Below, piece by piece: positions 15,918-30,464 of a stretch of 36,978 bases of DNA. Positions within the stretch are counted from its first letter, which is position 1; each line of letters starts with the position of its first letter. Source of the DNA: a virus. The position numbers were made by a program, and so were the translations under genes. The notes under the pieces were generated by a model, which worked only from the letters and a program-made list of their open reading frames with translations, was not told the DNA's origin and made no database searches. Location: IMG/VR virus record IMGVR_UViG_3300025154_000254, positions 1 to 36,978 of that record, one strand, 5' to 3'.

Positions 15918-16578
15918 TTAAACTGATCGAGTTGCACGTAGATTCATGATCCACGCATCATTGGTTATACGAGGGCATTCGGCAAATTTATAGCCTACGC
16001 TAGCATTTAATGCGAGTGGATCAGAATATATAGGTGGCCTATAAATAAAGGATGCACTATAACCATCTTGTTCAATACATGCAAATGCTTCCATACCACA
16101 ACAGGAAATGTTGTAGATATTAGCATTGTTTGCTGAAGCGCCAGGAATAACAGAACCAATAGATGAAACAAGGAATCTGATGTTACCAATAGCTCCCCAT
16201 TCAGCGTCTAGAGCGTTCATAGGAGATGGGTACTGGTTTTTATGTATAAACCCAGGAACTGCATCAAGATCTCCTGTAAGATTAGTATTACACATACCAA
16301 AGTATGCACTTCTTACAGGGGCTGTACCGAACTTGTTCTGCCCTTCGATATTATCTAAGATGGTATAGGCGTTATTGTTAAGTAATGTACGTACTACCTC
16401 ATCAACATCATACCGAGATATCTCAGTAGGAGTATCAGCACTAGTACCGCCTGTACAGTTAATAAATGATGCTGTTGATGCAAGCATATCACGAGTTAAC
16501 TGATCTTCTGTCTGCCGCAACGAAACCGCCAAACGAGCTGCTGCCTCGTTTAAAACCGGATCTTGGCTCTGCAATGTG
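15918..16578 (-). CDS. Major capsid protein, exon 2 (C-terminal two thirds)
   Basis: The reading frame begins in-frame with TLQSQDPVLNEAAARLAV and continues SLRQTEDQLTRDMLA, a signature of N4-gp56-like capsid proteins. It then runs through CNTNLTGDLDAVPGFI, NIRFLVSSIGSVIPG and ends at MNLRATRSV. No normal start codon or ribosome-binding site lies in front of it, and a stop precedes the homology, so it is not an independent gene. The missing N-terminus is encoded at 17354-17640 beyond a group I intron. Joining the two gives about 315 aa. The exact 3' splice site is approximate: I place it after the G at 16579 because a group I intron ends in G and this keeps the frame. The ordered blocks forming the HK97-like fold cannot be mapped by eye. 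Confidence 0.8.
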
Positions 16579-16721
16579 CATTACTATTACTTTTTAGTGA
16601 CCTAATAATTTTCTATTAGGCGGGATATGCCTCTTCGGGTTCTCCTCTTATAGTCTCCTATAAGATTAGACTGTCGCTTCATCTAAAGATGTCCACTCGC
16701 CTCAGTCGTTCACGCTAGACA

Positions 16722-17209
16722 TTTAAATAATTTTATGTTACGCCATACCCATAAAGAAAGGTATGCGATGTTTGATCATGATACAATAGTTTATATGGCT
16801 GGTATTATAGATGGAGAAGGCAGCCTCCAGGTAGAAATCCAAGGAGTATGCGCTTCCAGAAAAACAGATTATTATTCAGTACGTCTTATTATTATCAACA
16901 CAGATAAAAATCTTATGGATTGGTTAGTTAAAAACTTCGGAGGCAAAATACATTTAAGAAAACTAATGCCAAAACGTAAGCAATGTTATCATTGGGCAAT
17001 CTTTTCATCTGATGCTGAAGCCATACTAAAAGCATGTCTTCCTTATATGATAGTTAAAAAACCACAAGCTAAGTTACTTATTGAATTCATGCATAGCAAG
17101 CCAGAAGGTAAATATTATATCACTGCAGAAATTCAAGAACATCGACGGTTTTTGTATAAAAAGATGAAAGAATTAAATCATACTTATGGTCGTCATAAAA
17201 TTATTTAAA
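16722..17209. repeat. 16-bp inverted repeat framing the endonuclease gene
   Basis: TTTAAATAATTTTATG at 16722-16737 and CATAAAATTATTTAAA at 17194-17209 are exact reverse complements. The right arm contains the stop codon of the endonuclease gene (17206-17208). In intron RNA the arms would pair and lift the whole gene out of the catalytic core as one long stem-loop, which would let the ribozyme fold despite the insert. The pattern could also be the scar of the insertion event. Confidence 0.85.
16768..17208 (+). CDS. LAGLIDADG homing endonuclease, antisense in capsid intron
   Basis: This 146-aa protein has one LAGLIDADG-type motif, YMAGIIDGEGSL, at about residues 9-20, so it should act as a homodimer. 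Later parts fit the family: DKNLMDWLVKNFGGKIHLRK, and HWAIFSSDAEAILKACLPYMIVKKPQAKLL, the common pattern of intron-encoded DNA endonucleases. I chose ATG 16768, which has AAAGG about 6 bases upstream; an in-frame ATG at 16735 lies inside the inverted-repeat arm. The enzyme probably cuts intron-less capsid alleles to drive intron homing. It lies on the strand opposite to the intron and capsid gene, so it needs its own plus-strand promoter, which I cannot identify. Confidence 0.85.
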   Translation: MFDHDTIVYMAGIIDGEGSLQVEIQGVCASRKTDYYSVRLIIINTDKNLMDWLVKNFGGKIHLRKLMPKRKQCYHWAIFSSDAEAILKACLPYMIVKKPQAKLLIEFMHSKPEGKYYITAEIQEHRRFLYKKMKELNHTYGRHKII

Positions 17210-17353
17210 CCCTTGCGCCTTGTTGCCCTCGTCTTTACGTTAGGGGATCCAAGTCAATCAGAGCGGATTTAAAGCAGGCCGTAGCCTTGCAAAACCGAGA
17301 ATTTCAAAGAACTTTTAGTTAACCTGCTCATTCAATACAATATACGTCTTTGT

Positions 17354-17640
17354 TATTGAACTGTTACGGCACGTCTACCGTAGAATGAAATTTTTGCATC
17401 TATATCAAGTGCACTTAATGTTTGCGGAGGAGGAGTTACGCCTGTATTGCCCAGCGGAACCATAGCCGTAGCTAATGGATTATACCGCCGCATACGAAGC
17501 GTGGTACCACCATTACGCGGCATATTTTTCATCATCGCAGGAATTTTGTGAATCATATTAGGGACAGGGACGCTCAAAAGTTTATAACTAAAACTTTGTT
17601 GCACCGGAGCTGACATCACACTAGTTGTAGTAATTGCCAT
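17354..17640 (-). CDS. Major capsid protein, exon 1 (N-terminal part)
   Basis: These 95 codons encode the N-terminal arm of an N4-gp56-like capsid protein: SYKLLSVPVPNMIHKIPA (about 18-35), RNGGTTLRMRRYNPLATAMVP (about 42-62), GNTGVTPPPQTLSALDID, and KISFYGRRAVTV just before a TAA. In family members the text continues through a short strand into LxSQDPVLNE, which is the start of exon 2, so the TAA is intronic. AAGG precedes the ATG about 8 bases upstream. A long structured leader and a promoter-like sequence lie upstream. The last few codons are uncertain because the splice site is. Confidence 0.8.
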
Positions 17641-17670
17641 AAAAAGCCTTAAGTAAAAAAAAGCTGCGAA

Positions 17671-17808
17671 CAGAACTGTAGTTCTGCATCACAACGATAT
17701 GTATACTTAAGAATGACGAGTTCTAACGTACGTCATGAGCTGGTGATCGCTCAATACACCATAAGATAGAGCCGTAGCTCTTTATCAATCGATGGAAGCG
17801 AGCCCATC
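17671..17808 (-). other. Capsid mRNA leader with five consecutive hairpins
   Basis: Read from the predicted start of transcription, the untranslated leader contains five stem-loops: GATGG/CCATC (17791-17808), AGAGC/GCTCT with a TACG loop (17768-17781), TGAGC/GCTCA (17736-17753), TGACG/CGTCA (17714-17735) and CAGAACT/AGTTCTG (17671-17686). After the last comes TTTTTTTT about 9 bases on, then the ribosome-binding site. The stems are short but regularly placed and all exact. They may stabilise the abundant capsid mRNA or control readthrough into it. Chance cannot be excluded for single 5-bp stems. Confidence 0.5.
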
Positions 17809-17821
17809 TAACGCTATAAAT

Positions 17822-17851
17822 AGTATAGAACGTGTATTAATGATAAGGCAA
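17822..17851 (-). promoter_or_regulatory. Candidate sigma-70 promoter for the capsid gene
   Basis: On the minus strand TTGCCT (17846-17851) and TATACT (17822-17827) are separated by 18 bases, matching 4 of 6 and 5 of 6 consensus positions. Transcription would begin near 17815, just before the five-hairpin leader of the capsid gene. A strong terminator-like hairpin lies directly upstream (17871-17906), which would isolate capsid expression from the scaffold transcript. Confidence 0.5.
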
Positions 17852-17870
17852 CCAGAAGATTATTAACTAA

Positions 17871-17906
17871 ACATGGAGCTATAGGTATTATCCTATAGCT
17901 CCATGT
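17871..17906. terminator. 15-bp stem hairpin between scaffold and capsid
   Basis: ACATGGAGCTATAGG pairs exactly with CCTATAGCTCCATGT around a 6-base loop. In the minus direction TTAGTTAATAATC follows, a loose U-rich tail. It is the strongest structure in the 611-bp gene-free gap 17641-18252 and probably ends the scaffold transcript just upstream of the capsid promoter. Confidence 0.6.
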
Positions 17907-18252
17907 GTTTGTGGTTCACGTATCTGAATCTCTGCTATCGTAGCTGTAGCAGGCTCACAACAACGTAAGTATATGTACTATACAAGATTAAATGGATCTA
18001 GTGAAGGGTTACTCTCCACTAGATCCACAGTTAGCTAGATCAAGGAATCACCAAGGGCTAGCAGATATTTTAATTTACCAACCTAGCAAGATACATACGC
18101 AAGGTAATAACGTAGCAATAGGAGGTATAAACTCTTTACTCGCTAGGCTGGCATAAGATAGGGGCCAGATGTACGACTAGCCCCTATCCAAAAGGAGAGT
18201 ATGATGAAGCACCAGACTCATTACGTAGTATATAGCAGCTAGGGAAGCCAGG
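17907..18252. other. Remainder of the scaffold-capsid gap with two more hairpins
   Basis: No reading frame of supported coding character lies here. TGGATCTAGTG (17993-18003) pairs with CACTAGATCCA (18017-18027), and GATAGGGGC (18157-18165) pairs with GCCCCTATC (18180-18188). On the plus strand there are Shine-Dalgarno-like runs (AGGAGG at about 18120 and AAGGAGAG at 18191), the latter before a 13-codon frame (18201-18242). The purpose of such a long spacer in a compact genome is unclear; it may be a remnant of a lost gene or a transcript-processing zone. Confidence 0.5.
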
Positions 18253-25223: not shown

Positions 25224-25691
25224 TTATACATTTGCAGCGCAGAGCGCTACTGCTAATGCATCTGTTGCATCATAGGTTATAGGTTCTCCTTGTAAACAAG
25301 GGAACTTCCGCTTAATCTTATCAGCTACCTGCTCTTTTTCAGCATTACCTGCACCTACTATCATCCGCTTTACCTCACGTGGAGCATATTCATGTAGCTT
25401 TAAGCCATGTTTTACATGAAGCATAAGTAATATACCACGCAAATAACCTAACTTAACAAACGTATTCATGTTTTTACCAAAAAAGGGCGTTTCTATCGCT
25501 AGATCTGTTACCTTATAGTCAATAATTAGCTTTTTTATCCCATCATGGAATACGGATAAACGATCAGGCAATGGATATTTGGACTTTTGGGTTATAACAC
25601 CATAGTGTAATAGTAGTATATGGTCATCTATTACCTCTATGATCCCATAACCTGCTGCAACAAAAGAAGGATCTACCCCTAATATAATCAT
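25224..25691 (-). CDS. ruvC: RuvC-like Holliday junction resolvase
   Basis: This 155-aa protein shows the RuvC active site: GVDPS with Asp7, AIETPFF with Glu67, and YDATDALAVALCAA with Asp141 and Asp144, the four acidic residues that bind two metal ions. RuvC cuts four-way junctions symmetrically; phage versions resolve recombination or branched replication intermediates before packaging. It overlaps the end of terL by 4 bases, so debranching is linked to packaging. Length equals bacterial RuvC (about 170) minus a short C-terminus. Confidence 0.9.
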   Translation of the reverse strand: MIILGVDPSFVAAGYGIIEVIDDHILLLHYGVITQKSKYPLPDRLSVFHDGIKKLIIDYKVTDLAIETPFFGKNMNTFVKLGYLRGILLMLHVKHGLKLHEYAPREVKRMIVGAGNAEKEQVADKIKRKFPCLQGEPITYDATDALAVALCAANV

Positions 25692-28600
25692 GGTTCATCC
25701 CTAAAAAATGATGGTAAATATCCTTGAGGATGCATAGTTTCTTGATAACGTTTTTCTAGTTCTTCTGGAGTAGTGCCTTGTTTGATCTTAGGTAAGGATA
25801 TAGCCATATACCTAAAGCTATCTGCAAAATGGCTTGAATAGTCATGAGCAGGGTGATCTTTATAGATCTTATTTTTTGTATCAAACTCTTGGTGGTAATT
25901 CTCTAAAGCTGTTATAAGCGGCCTAGACGTTGTTTCATTAAACCAACAACGTGGCAATAAAGACCGTACAGCTTCTATGCCATCTATTACAGGCATCTTA
26001 GGAGCTATAAAAAAACTTATACCTAATTGCCTAGCTTTATCAATACGCGCAACACCCGTAGAAAATTCCCTAATAGCAAGATCCCAAGGCCCCACATGCC
26101 TCCCATAGACATAAGGTTTATCAAACACCACCTTAACATAATGCTCTAACCCTTCCTTGGTGTTCTCGTACGTGTCTATAATATGGACATTGCTACCTAT
26201 CATCTGAAAAAATATAATCGTCGTACTATCTCTTATCCCAAGATCCCATGCCGTATGAACTCTATGTCCAGGATTCCATGGCACTTCACCTATCTGACCC
26301 TTAACCTTTAACCCATCTATATACTTAGCATAATACGCTCCCTCCACTCCCAACGTAAAATCCGTATAGTACTCCTGCTGGATCAAGTCTTCGCTCATTA
26401 TACCTTCTTGACGCTCTCGCTCTATATCCTCCTTAGTAATGTGCTTAGTGTCCTCTATCGTAAGCTTGGAACAGTACCATAACGGCGATTCCTTCGCTAC
26501 TTGGTAGAGGTCCCATAAATGATTTTTCCCCCTGGGGGTGTTATGAGATAGAAATAAATTTGAAAAAAAGCTATTTGTCCGCGGTATTACGAAATCGAAG
26601 ACTTGTGACAGGCTGTAATGAATCGAGGCAACGGGAGAATAATACAACTTCTCTGATAATAACTCTTGAAGATAGGGATGAGGGTGGCGATTGTTTAGCC
26701 AAGATATTAACCGACGCGTCATACGCTTGGGGTTGGTTACTAGGTTTTTGGGTAGACTGTAGCCCATTAATCGTGCGGTATCTATAGGATAAACATTTCC
26801 TGATTCTTCTCGTAGTTTATCACATATATTTGACCAGTTTTTTTGCTTACGCTCTAACCTAAAGCCTATATCTCTATAAAATACGTGGGCAAAATGCCCT
26901 GTTATTTCAAGGTTATAGATTATAGAAGAGACTTTAACTATTTTAGTGGGGCGCTTAAACTCTTTTCTGATATTACCCATTATTCCAAAATTAGATAAAA
27001 CAACTTGCAGTGTTTTAAGAAAACTTAAAGATGTAGAAGTTAACTTAACTACACCCTTTTTATTTGGGTTAGAAGCACTACATCCATCTCCATCAAATAC
27101 ACCTTGCAAGAACGATGTCATCTGCCGCTTAGTACAGGATAATAGACTGTCAGGGAAGGATTTGTTTACAGCTTTATGCTTGAACCCTAAATACTCTAAA
27201 GCTCTACATAAAGCTCTTGAACAACAGATATGATGTATCCCATCAGGCGCCGTCTTAAATCCCATAGAATGCAAGAAATCTATAATCTCTGCATCTTTTT
27301 TCTTGGTTATCGTTGCCGAAAAAGAACTATAACAACCATCCGCGTGGAATAACCCTAAAAGATAAAAGAAGTCATCGTTACTATGCGACGGACCTTCTAA
27401 TATAGACAATAAAGCAGGCTTTTTACTTGCCGAATCCATAAGATCTTGCCTTATCACCTCCGTTATCTTTACACCATCACCCCATACATCTTGCCCATAT
27501 TGCAATGGTAACAAGTCTCCCACTTTTAAATCAGATGACTCTACCCACTTAGATCCATCCCATAACCTATGAACAGACGTACATTCTATCTCTGCTCCAT
27601 TTTCTAACACAATCTTTAATGTAGGAACTTCTTTATCCCCACCATAATAAAACTGCTCTGCTTCATGAAAACCTCCTATACCCCATATATTCTTATGAAG
27701 ATCAGAATACTCCTCCCTACTCCTAGAAACATCCTTTATCCTAACTAATCCCTTATCCCCTATAACCAACGTCTCAGGCCCCACACAAGATAAAAAAAGA
27801 GCCCACCCATCATTAGCCGTCAATATAGGCCTCAAATACTTGTACGCTCTAGGATCTTGTAACGCATACTCAGAAAAAACACATGCTATAGGGTTAGTTC
27901 CCATCAAACTATCAAAGTTATCACTACCCACCAACTGCAATAAAGACCCATTAACAAACCGTATCTTCATCTCCTGAGCATTTAACCCATTCTTCGCTAT
28001 CAACTCCTTAGGAATAAAATCTAGTACCCTCAACCCCTCCGTAGTAATACTATCCCATATAACCTTCTTCGCCTGCGCATACGTCGGGAATATATAAAAA
28101 ACTACACACGGCTTCCTAAGACACTGACGTATACATAAATTCCACCCCATAATATCTTTGCCACTATTATGCACCAACCAGCCATTAGCAAAAAAATTAC
28201 CGTTAACCTCCGTCTCCAAATCATACAACTTAGACTCTGCTGATGGCTGGTTATTCACCTCAGCCGGATATAGACCTTGCACTTTCCCGTGACAATTAGA
28301 AATAGTGCCATTTTGGGCTTCTGTAAAACCGGAGGGGAAGCTTCCGACTTCCAAATCTCCATATAGAGGCATACCCCCCTGTACAGAATCACAAGTAGTG
28401 TTAATTTTTTGAGTCGCACTTATATTAATTTTTCTTAGAACATTGCAACGTTGGATATCCGGGCTTTTCTGCGTGTTTTGCGCGCTTTTTAAAACCATGG
28501 ATTTACGCAACAGATCGGCGTAGACAGACGCTTTTAGAACCGATTGTACGTCTAATAGCTTGTTTTGGTTTTTTAGTGCGTTGTTTTTTGCGCACAATTT

Positions 28601-29983
28601 ATTTCGTTTTATGGCGTAGAAAAAGGATTTTTTTATCTCTATTTTTTTTCTCTCGTCTGTTATCGCTTCCGACAGTGTGCCATTTTTAGCTTCCAGTGTA
28701 GATAAATCCTGCATATCTAAGCGGGTTTTAGGGGTTCTTAGATTTATCCTGCTTAATACAGCGTGCACCATTCGGTTTCTATGAGGTTGGCTAGGTGTGT
28801 CTTTGGCTATTAGCTCGTCGTGGTGGTTAAGTAATAGGTAGAGATCATTATCATGGTGCAAGATCATGCTATAAGAAGTTGTAGCACGTACATTAGAAGA
28901 GTTTTCTACAGAGTCAGGAACTGTCGGTCTAAGGCCTAATTTACGTAATAGCCAGTACCAACTCCACGGTACATATCGTATGTGATTAAATATAATCGCG
29001 CTATCGTTTAAATTAACGTTATTCTCTACATCGGTAGCTAAGTTAATTAAGTTACTATCATAGAGAACCACAGTTCCATCTACGGTAATAATAGATTTTA
29101 TGGCCAGTAACAACGCCTCATAAGACAGTTCCCATAATAAGTTGGGTAATTTATGAGATAGATGATAATAATGCAAACGTAAGCGATGTATCCAATTAAA
29201 CAATGGACGATTTTCGCCTGTAATTACTCTATAACCTAAGATATAGGTAGAACCCGTTTGCTTCCATGTCCCCTGTATATTAAATAGCTGCGATATGATG
29301 TCTTCGATGCGTTCTAAAATTATACGACATGACGTAGTAAAGTTAATGTCTTTGCAGGATAAATACGCAATGCTAGATAAACAATATCCCACTAACTCAG
29401 CTTCAAGCGGCTTAATCTCCGTAACACTAATTGCTAACGATGGGCCTGAGTATTGCAAGCAGTGAACACCATGGTTTTCATGCTTTATTTGGTCTGTATG
29501 TACATGCCCTATAGTAGACCAGGTAACAGGTGAATATACGTACTTATTAACATCGGTGTTATTATACGAACGACGTTGCGTTATGGCGAATTTATGATCG
29601 AAGCTTGAGGTAAGTGTTGGGTAGCCATAAGAACTTGTCTCTACGGTAGCCCTAGTTGCGGTTTGCCATATGTTACGCACTTTGTCTGGCACTGTTTTGT
29701 TGCCGTCCCAAGAAAGTATCTCGTCACCTGGTTGTATGTCTTTAAGTAATTTATAGTCTCCGTTGGCCATCAATATGTGAGTATCACCTGATATGCAGCG
29801 ACGTGGCCATATACAAAGACAGCGTCTATAGTTACGTTCCTCTATCGCTACTATCGGAGGAATCTGCCAAGCTCGTGCTTGGAACTTCAACTCTATCTGG
29901 GGCGTTTTGCGTGATCTTTCCTGCGACGTTCCATTTACTGAACTGCTCGTCGCTCCTGTTGACGTTATGACTGTATCGCTCAT
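25688..29983 (-). CDS. terL: Terminase large subunit carrying two inteins
   Basis: The 1,431-codon frame encodes a 471-residue TerL after removal of two inteins (residues 63-606 and 733-1148). Joined text reads IWPRR|SGKD (Walker A, GxxxxGK type), NPIACVFSEYAL (Walker B with acidic E), and ALFLS|TPRGKNHLWDLY (motif III). Nuclease parts follow: HTAWDLGIRDSTTIIFFQ, VGPWDLAIREFSTGVARID and DYSSHFADSFRYMAI with Asp residues for metal binding. TerL translocates DNA into the prohead by ATP hydrolysis and cuts concatemers. The inteins must splice out for activity because both break ATPase motifs. I chose ATG 29983, with AGGAG 6 bases upstream (a GTG lies one codon earlier). It overlaps terS by about 150 bases. 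Confidence 0.95.
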   Translation of the reverse strand: MSDTVITSTGATSSSVNGTSQERSRKTPQIELKFQARAWQIPPIVAIEERNYRRCLCIWPRRCISGDTHILMANGDYKLLKDIQPGDEILSWDGNKTVPDKVRNIWQTATRATVETSSYGYPTLTSSFDHKFAITQRRSYNNTDVNKYVYSPVTWSTIGHVHTDQIKHENHGVHCLQYSGPSLAISVTEIKPLEAELVGYCLSSIAYLSCKDINFTTSCRIILERIEDIISQLFNIQGTWKQTGSTYILGYRVITGENRPLFNWIHRLRLHYYHLSHKLPNLLWELSYEALLLAIKSIITVDGTVVLYDSNLINLATDVENNVNLNDSAIIFNHIRYVPWSWYWLLRKLGLRPTVPDSVENSSNVRATTSYSMILHHDNDLYLLLNHHDELIAKDTPSQPHRNRMVHAVLSRINLRTPKTRLDMQDLSTLEAKNGTLSEAITDERKKIEIKKSFFYAIKRNKLCAKNNALKNQNKLLDVQSVLKASVYADLLRKSMVLKSAQNTQKSPDIQRCNVLRKINISATQKINTTCDSVQGGMPLYGDLEVGSFPSGFTEAQNGTISNCHGKVQGLYPAEVNNQPSAESKLYDLETEVNGNFFANGWLVHNSGKDIMGWNLCIRQCLRKPCVVFYIFPTYAQAKKVIWDSITTEGLRVLDFIPKELIAKNGLNAQEMKIRFVNGSLLQLVGSDNFDSLMGTNPIACVFSEYALQDPRAYKYLRPILTANDGWALFLSCVGPETLVIGDKGLVRIKDVSRSREEYSDLHKNIWGIGGFHEAEQFYYGGDKEVPTLKIVLENGAEIECTSVHRLWDGSKWVESSDLKVGDLLPLQYGQDVWGDGVKITEVIRQDLMDSASKKPALLSILEGPSHSNDDFFYLLGLFHADGCYSSFSATITKKKDAEIIDFLHSMGFKTAPDGIHHICCSRALCRALEYLGFKHKAVNKSFPDSLLSCTKRQMTSFLQGVFDGDGCSASNPNKKGVVKLTSTSLSFLKTLQVVLSNFGIMGNIRKEFKRPTKIVKVSSIIYNLEITGHFAHVFYRDIGFRLERKQKNWSNICDKLREESGNVYPIDTARLMGYSLPKNLVTNPKRMTRRLISWLNNRHPHPYLQELLSEKLYYSPVASIHYSLSQVFDFVIPRTNSFFSNLFLSHNTPRGKNHLWDLYQVAKESPLWYCSKLTIEDTKHITKEDIERERQEGIMSEDLIQQEYYTDFTLGVEGAYYAKYIDGLKVKGQIGEVPWNPGHRVHTAWDLGIRDSTTIIFFQMIGSNVHIIDTYENTKEGLEHYVKVVFDKPYVYGRHVGPWDLAIREFSTGVARIDKARQLGISFFIAPKMPVIDGIEAVRSLLPRCWFNETTSRPLITALENYHQEFDTKNKIYKDHPAHDYSSHFADSFRYMAISLPKIKQGTTPEELEKRYQETMHPQGYLPSFFRDEP
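26540..27787 (-). mobile_element. TerL intein 2 with LAGLIDADG endonuclease (S|TPRG site)
   Basis: This 416-residue intein begins with Cys after ...ALFLS and ends His-Asn before Thr of TPRGKN, so nucleophile, terminal Asn and +1 Thr are all present. Block A is CVGPETLVIGDKGLVRIKDV; the B-block TSVH lies near residue 70; FSNLFLSHN is the C-terminal block. Between them are two LAGLIDADG motifs, LLGLFHADG (about 143-151) and FLQGVFDGDG (about 226-235), each with the catalytic Asp, so the homing enzyme appears intact. It would cut intein-free terL alleles at the conserved motif III DNA. Confidence 0.92.
28166..29797 (-). mobile_element. TerL intein 1 in the Walker A motif, large insert
   Basis: This 544-residue intein begins CISGDTHILMANGDYKLLKD (block A) directly after IWPRR and ends YDLETEVNGNFFANGWLVHN before SGKD, with the expected Cys1, His-Asn end and Ser+1. 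Block B carries SSFDHKF with His68, Ser in place of the usual Thr. Two LAGLIDADG-like segments are weak: LVGYCLSSIAYLS (135-147), with the catalytic acid replaced by Ser, and LLLAIKSIITVDGTVV (229-244), which keeps Asp240. A Lys-rich stretch follows (about 365-440). Splicing elements seem intact; the endonuclease looks decayed. Confidence 0.9.
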
Positions 29984-30464
29984 CACTGTCTCCTAAAAGC
30001 CTTGAAGGTGCCATCGGTATAGCATCGGTAGCTGCGTAACGCTCCATGATAATTACAGGCGTGTTACTCGATCCTCCAATTGCCAACTCCTGCTTCCTTA
30101 ACCCAGACTCCCATTTCATCTGCTCTTTTACTTCATTACTGTAATAAGCGTGAGTTTTAAGCACCAACAACGGGTTAAGACGGTTATATAACGCTTCAGT
30201 CTCCCTACGAACCCCTAACTTAGACACCGCTAACTCATACGCAGTTCTTAACTTTTCATGCTTATCCATCCATCGATGAAACGTCTTAGGGTCTATCCCC
30301 TCTCGGTTAGCAAAATCCGCTATGCATAACGAGGTAGACTCATCCGACCAACTATCCAGCCGTTCACACATCTCTTCCAAATCTATAATCGTTACATCAT
30401 CATCTTTAAGTATACACCTGCGCTTCTTCACCGGCTTTACAGACTCATCCCCTCGCACGTCCAT
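29832..30464 (-). CDS. terS: Terminase small subunit
   Basis: This 210-aa protein has a central helix-turn-helix type segment, CIADFANREGIDPKTFHRWMDKH (cut here to note FANREGIDPKTFHRW), followed by LRTAYELAVSKLGVRRETEALYN and a coil EQMKWESGLRKQELAI. Its order upstream of terL fits. TerS recognises the packaging site and forms a ring that regulates TerL. I selected ATG 30464, with AAGGAG five bases upstream; a GTG two codons earlier is possible. The C-terminal Ser/Asp-rich 50 codons overlap the start of terL. Confidence 0.8.
   Translation of the reverse strand: MDVRGDESVKPVKKRRCILKDDDVTIIDLEEMCERLDSWSDESTSLCIADFANREGIDPKTFHRWMDKHEKLRTAYELAVSKLGVRRETEALYNRLNPLLVLKTHAYYSNEVKEQMKWESGLRKQELAIGGSSNTPVIIMERYAATDAIPMAPSRLLGDSDERYSHNVNRSDEQFSKWNVAGKITQNAPDRVEVPSTSLADSSDSSDRGT

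Follow-up and report, generated by a model that had tools for sequence, protein, structure and literature searches.

INTRODUCTION

Phage capsid genes are already known to harbor group I introns with endonuclease ORFs antisense to the interrupted gene. In mycobacteriophage LittleE, splicing of the capsid intron was demonstrated by RT-PCR and N-terminal sequencing, and a LAGLIDADG ORF lies on its bottom strand (PMC3706429); the same source cites lactococcal phage Tuc2009 as a capsid-intron case. The locus described here belongs to a virus record of 36,978 bases (the window, meaning the whole stretch that was analyzed). It resembles LittleE in having an intron in the major capsid gene, U/...G/ boundaries (a slash marks a splice site) and a candidate LAGLIDADG-type ORF on the opposite strand. 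In contrast to the window, LittleE has one ordinary intron, with no coreless companion or micro-exon reported (PMC3706429). The original prediction had called a capsid gene rare as an intron host; such a host is not new, as LittleE shows. The unusual part of the locus is a 29-nt element that we call mini-intron A.

Like the window, orf142 of phage Twort is cited for several group I introns in one gene and for cross-intron use of splice sites, whereas all of its introns are described there as full introns and exon skipping as a side product (cited in PMC11878797). The small introns of Phialophora and lichens (63-75 and 56-81 nt, respectively) share with A the P1 and P10 pairings, a helix that connects the middle of the intron to the 3' exon, and the loss of most core helices; unlike A, they reside in rRNA, keep a putative P7, end in U, are reported to self-splice and have no neighboring core (PMC3160393). 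Group I ribozymes have been engineered to cut segments as long as 28 nt out of other RNAs via P1, P9.0 and P10 (PMC4094466), which supports the feasibility of a group I core removing A. In these trans-excision-splicing ribozymes and spliceozymes, as proposed here for A, a core removes an internal segment and joins its flanks with the help of P1 and P10 (PMC4094466). These ribozymes carry the guide themselves and make use of P9.0 (PMC4094466 and work of the Testa laboratory as cited there), whereas A has its guide within the segment to be removed and is connected to the P1 of the core by a tether helix. Our search, which covered open-access papers, turned up no description of a coreless group I intron that occurs naturally and is linked to the core of a neighbor. 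A natural intron of this kind, tethered to the ribozyme of its neighbor, appears to be undescribed, the arrangement having been known before only as an engineered reaction.

RESULTS

Exon structure of the major capsid gene

Two minus-strand frames of the window had been proposed to encode consecutive parts of one N4-gp56-like capsid protein, and profile searches confirmed this. Frames 17640..17353 and 16574..15918 matched PHROG 1357, a phage major head protein, over positions 22-115 and 127-342 of the profile, respectively, and an uninterrupted relative (L001) matched TIGR04387 of NCBIfam, the N4-gp56 family, with an E value of 1.3e-42. Pfam did not recognize the capsid pieces of the window, and the AlphaFold model of the capsid protein had a mean pLDDT of 29. 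We have retrieved 80 related capsid loci, all of them from uncultivated metagenome assemblies. With the exon-3 query, identity to the nearest isolated phages did not exceed 25%, apart from one partial match at 37%; hence, the phage group is uncultivated.

The gene boundaries were obtained by spliced protein-to-DNA alignment to uninterrupted relatives, the only intron-specific term being a small bonus for edges with U and G. The alignment returned two introns, A at 17376..17348 (29 nt) and B at 17321..16579 (743 nt), with 26 bases between A and the downstream B (features are on the minus strand unless stated otherwise). Exon 1 (17377..17640), which is also supported by PHROG 1357, comprises codons 1-88 and ends in TTC TAC GGT/. 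The 26-nt micro-exon (17322..17347), whose synonymous variation in relatives agrees with a coding role, encodes TYIVLNEQ plus two bases of V97, and exon 3 (15918..16578) supplies the third base of codon 97 and the rest of the gene through the stop. The predicted spliced product has 316 aa. The junctions are thus located after Gly88 and within codon 97 (GT/C, Val), and not at the single position proposed originally. Exon 1 had also been drawn seven codons too long, the terminal "RRAVTVQ" being a read-through of A into an in-frame stop. The intron that had been predicted to split the gene is real, but it is one of two, with the micro-exon between them.

The uninterrupted relatives read FYG-TYVQLNEQV-TLQNQDP, and these empty alleles agree with the predicted junctions. 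The nine-residue stretch TYVQLNEQV is retained between the two insertions in the window and in over a dozen relatives. We infer that the capsid gene is interrupted by two introns that are spliced at the RNA level. If true, these uncultivated phages must complete two linked splicing events to make their coat protein; since a group I intron divides the capsid gene, virion production should depend on splicing. The provenance of the sequences, all uncultivated metagenome assemblies, could also suggest broken capsid genes or assembly errors at the A/B site. Such errors are contradicted by covariation, as more than 60 distinct sequences have common compensatory pairing and exact boundaries, and their chance of explaining the locus is negligible.

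Intron B and its group I core

Intron B (16579..17321) is, judged by its edges, P1 and P3-P8 core, a standard group I intron. Its edges read GAGCAGGU/UAAC...GUAAUG/CAC, with U before the 5' site and a terminal G. The exon strand GAGCAGGU (17322..17329) forms an 8-bp P1 with the guide strand GCCUGCUU (17272..17279), placing a U.G pair at the splice site, and a P1 of this type was found at essentially every site among more than 100 introns of the capsid gene. P10 of B has one base pair in the window and two or three in most 96.2 relatives.

The 5' strand of P3, UCCGCUC (17261..17267), pairs with GAGUGGA (16698..16692), with 7/7 pairs covarying in relatives, and that of P7, GACUG (16703..16707), pairs with CAGUC (16673..16669); all four strands also lie in the core model match, and P7 is likewise supported by covariation. 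They are accompanied by the P8 hairpin (about 16691..16680) and, from direct reading, by P9 (CUUAUAG...CUAUAAG, 16647..16664) and the further hairpin P9.2 (16620..16601). The predicted P3, P7, P8 and P9 were thus present, but P2, looked for by inspection only, was not seen in these introns. Across 22 small relatives, P3, P4, P5, P6, P7 and P8 were 98.7% paired with 102 two-sided cells, which none of 500 shuffles equaled, and the pairing was destroyed when the partners were slid.

The Rfam model RF00028 (Intron_gpI) gave no match in the window even at E <= 10, and it also missed every one of 13 related intron loci tested, which is a limit of the model and not a defining property of group I introns. 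Since RF00028 was blind to the window and to these loci, we have built a covariance model of the core from the 22 relatives. This model found the window core in two pieces (E values of 7e-6 and 2e-4) with the ORF between them, and this was the sole strong core match in the window. A covariance-model search of the minus strand, the check put forward with the original prediction, hence came out negative with Rfam and positive with the dedicated model.

The ORF, of 157 aa, is antisense to the capsid gene and lies in the P6 loop of B (16735..17208, plus strand). It matched PHROG 5046 (E 6.6e-25), which is labelled HNH; it also carries an AGIIDGEG motif and matched Pfam LAGLIDADG_1 below the cut-off (E 0.006). 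We consider it a candidate homing endonuclease of the LAGLIDADG type. Antisense ORFs were present in nearly all 96.2 introns, and the orientation of the LAGLIDADG-type ORF, nearly always antisense there, was sense in the site-12 introns; some ORFs scored as sense resemble mirror frames of similarly long antisense ORFs. The 96.2 introns mostly have a conserved leader of 35-60 nt (TTCTTTGAAATTTCTTGGTTTTG) between splice site and guide, missing in a few relatives (L144, L132 and L043), all of which still have A.

Mini-intron A and its P1 and P10 pairings

Mini-intron A (17348..17376, AGACGTGCCGTAACAGTTCAATAACAAAG) follows a U and ends in G, like group I introns, and contains an in-frame stop. Its guide strand GCCGUA (17365..17370) forms P1 with the end of exon 1, UACGGU (17377..17382), in which the splice-site U pairs with G, and the adjoining ACGU (17371..17374) forms P10 with the start of the micro-exon, ACGU (17347..17344). 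A pattern scan yielded 72 contigs with 60 distinct A elements, whose lengths were between 28 and 41 nt and covered all classes modulo three. As the scan patterns fix some bases of A, we have taken boundary and co-occurrence counts from the similarity-sampled set and wobble counts from all elements. One further A element was located at 650-686 of L259, a contig of 4.4 kb that had been binned with the genome of an uncultured Methylococcaceae; this binning gives a weak hint of the host.

Both helices covary. In the scan of 2.9 million viral contigs, P1 of A occurred as TACGGT with GCCGTA (60 cases) or as TATGGT with GCCATA (4 cases), and the mixed pairs, TAC with GCCATA or TAT with GCCGTA, were absent. 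The third base of the Thr89 codon was complementary to the guide in 64/64 elements (C-G 44, U-A 9, A-U 6, G-C 5), and this wobble base changed at least 15 times on the tree of the flanking exon DNA. Sixteen two-sided changes were counted in P10, a number that 0 of 500 shuffles produced. TAC GGT was used by 14/14 genes with A and by 6/55 genes lacking it (similarity-sampled set). The covarying changes in P1 and P10 are synonymous, which argues that selection acts on RNA pairing.

The in-frame stop was found in 60/62 elements, compared with about 37 expected after shuffling. This stop, the length of A and the hairpin at its upstream edge recall the 50-nt gap of T4 gene 60, over which ribosomes hop, so that A might stay in the mRNA and be bypassed during translation. 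Hopping, as established for T4 gene 60, requires matching take-off and landing codons. At A, the take-off codon would be GGU, whereas the last triplet of A is variable (AAG, ATG, TTG, TAG and others) and offers no matching landing codon; hopping would also fail to account for P10, for the conservation of U and G at the edges and for the link to a downstream core. We have rejected it on the landing codons and regard it as very improbable.

The core model detected no P3-P8 core in A and no P7 was seen by inspection; with 28-41 nt in all relatives, A is without room for a core.

A tether helix beside the P1 of the downstream intron

The tail of A, starting three bases past the guide, is complementary to the exon stretch that directly precedes the next intron's 8-bp P1. 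In the window, GUUCAAUA in the tail (17354..17361) pairs with UAUUGAAU in the micro-exon (17330..17337), which directly abuts P1 of B. A pairing within the micro-exon, GUUCAAU/AUUGAAU, had at first seemed a plausible P1 of B and turned out to be the tether.

The same pairing was seen at four core sites, the tail in each case matching the site in use. In the 96.2 class, tails like GUUUAAUUG face the exon sequence CAAUUAAAC, followed directly by GAGCAGGU. The corresponding tail and exon are CUGAUUUUG and CAAAAUCAG, followed by GAUCCCGU, in the 104.2 class; AUCAAGGCGUG and CGCGUCUUGGU, followed by GUGUCGCU, in the 116.2 class; and GUUUUGGAG and CUCCAAAAC in the 104.0 class. The mean length of a tail's own duplex was 9.0 bp, against 5.4 bp when tails and exons were permuted (0/1000), a test that is powerless for the 116.2 class alone, where the exons hardly differ. 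For the 96.2 class, 91.8% of the tether cells were paired versus 71.2% after shuffling, with 63 two-sided changes. When the best complement of each tail was sought in 150 nt of downstream exon with no prior position, it was the flush position in 49/58 cases, for which chance would give about 1 in 141. The tether was bulged or shorter in about ten relatives. A scan of 2.04 Mb with a generic motif gave matches at site 88.0 and none elsewhere.

The predicted folds of L144 and L150 comprised P1 of A, a short linker, the tether hairpin and, flush with it, P1 of the next intron (z of -3.7 and -5.0, respectively). The window's own stretch had a different minimum-energy structure (z -2.1). Two relatives, L105 and L127, have near-identical exons and the same 5' half of A, but their tails and core sites differ, and each tail is similar to those of the core class to which it belongs.

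A tail that pairs with the downstream exon could instead be the counterpart of the mid-intron helix (PM) of the Phialophora SSU rRNA introns, and A an autonomous minimal group I intron that self-splices as they do. Those introns likewise have P1, P10 and a helix of mid-intron with 3' exon, and one 67-nt member of this type is reported to splice in vitro (PMC3160393). But A has half of their length (63-75 nt), shows no P7 and ends in G instead of U, and the target of its tail shifts so as to abut whichever core site is used. We consider self-splicing of A unlikely.

Co-occurrence of mini-intron A with a downstream core

In the similarity-sampled set, a proximal downstream core (within about 30 codons) was present in 14/14 genes with A and in 3/55 genes lacking it; in every case, A preceded a full intron located at one of the four sites. 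An A lacking a downstream core was found neither in this set nor in a scan for A elements with no intron before residue 116, whereas an autonomous intron should sometimes stand alone. The search for A with uninterrupted coding to residue ~116 gave seven contigs only; the five distinct readable ones among them belonged to the 116.2 class and had the tail of A paired beside the 116.2 site. Conversely, across all loci, every intron seen at 96.2 (49 cases), 104.2 (11 cases) and 116.2 (6 cases) was accompanied by A, many of these cases coming from the A-pattern scan, and introns at 104.0 occurred equally often with and without it.

Co-occurrence alone is no proof of catalysis, since homing could carry A along with its neighbor by co-conversion. 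A might then be a neutral relic hitch-hiking with the mobile intron, which lies 26-86 nt away, and be removed by a host factor or by a second phage core; the 96.2, 104.2 and 116.2 counts fit this. A relic, though, would not be expected to have a tether joining it to the exon beside the P1 of the core at four different sites. In addition, strong core matches occurred solely in the intron following A both in the window and in the A-bearing relative L150. Taken with the tether, this makes a passive relic decidedly improbable. In the two uninterrupted near-full records tested, the 22-relative covariance model gave no strong core match.

At exactly the site of A, the divergent locus L248 has a full group I intron of 330 nt (2343-2672). 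Given this intron, A could be the core-deleted descendant of a similar one.

Proposed splicing mechanism

The sequence data support the boundaries of both introns, the P1, P10 and tether pairings, the core structure and the co-occurrence of A with a core. Based on the co-occurrence and the tether, we propose that the downstream core excises both A and B, a reading to which we assign a probability of roughly 0.84. The capsid pre-mRNA would contain a coreless group I mini-intron and, downstream of it, a full group I intron, which in the window is B. A would provide only substrate parts, namely a guide of 10 nt that is complementary to the junction of the joined exons (P1 with its U.G pair, plus P10), the terminal G and the tail, whose pairing partner in the exon lies just before the P1 of the next intron. 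The tether would stack A on the neighboring P1 and so bring it to that core, which would dock the P1 helices of A and of its own intron one after the other. One core would thereby carry out guanosine-initiated splicing twice, at the sites of A and at its own, and exon 1, the micro-exon and exon 3 would be joined to encode the 316-aa capsid protein. That A is spliced from the RNA, that the neighboring core is its catalyst, the chemistry and the order of the two reactions are parts of this model, in which A may leave either in cis or by the action of the released intron.

Spliceosomal introns are presumed to have arisen from self-splicing ones that lost their own catalyst and came to rely on a shared one, a route known on the group II side. 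We consider it quite likely that A is a group I parallel to spliceosomal dependence, that is, a coreless, guide-only intron with a retargetable tether that is excised by the neighbor's ribozyme, with one ribozyme serving two introns. If true, this phage case, in which the helices between substrate and catalyst can be read from covariation at synonymous codons, would make the shared-catalyst step testable in vitro. It would also provide a natural design rule for removing short RNA segments and a warning that gene callers and Rfam miss such split genes.

Other insertions and adjacent sequences

Within this phage group, the capsid gene is a hot spot for introns, with about 30 distinct insertion sites and up to six introns per gene (L132). 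No other mini-intron was found in the capsid gene besides a lone 4-nt insertion at codon 118 of L093 (CGT/TATG/CAA), where L111 and L112 carry 200-nt introns; the insertion may be an error, a remnant or an even smaller excised segment. A coarse comparison of the other genes in four genomes showed that the capsid and terminase genes alone were clearly split. The window encodes an ORF of 1432 aa (25688-29986, minus strand), probably the terminase large subunit, for which uninterrupted relatives have a 453-aa version. This ORF contains two intein-like segments, one of the Hint type (residues ~64-166) and an intein with LAGLIDADG_3 (~734-1149). Upstream of the capsid gene, about 600 bases (17641-18252) are devoid of long ORFs and contain an inverted repeat around AGCTATAGG/CCTATAGCT.
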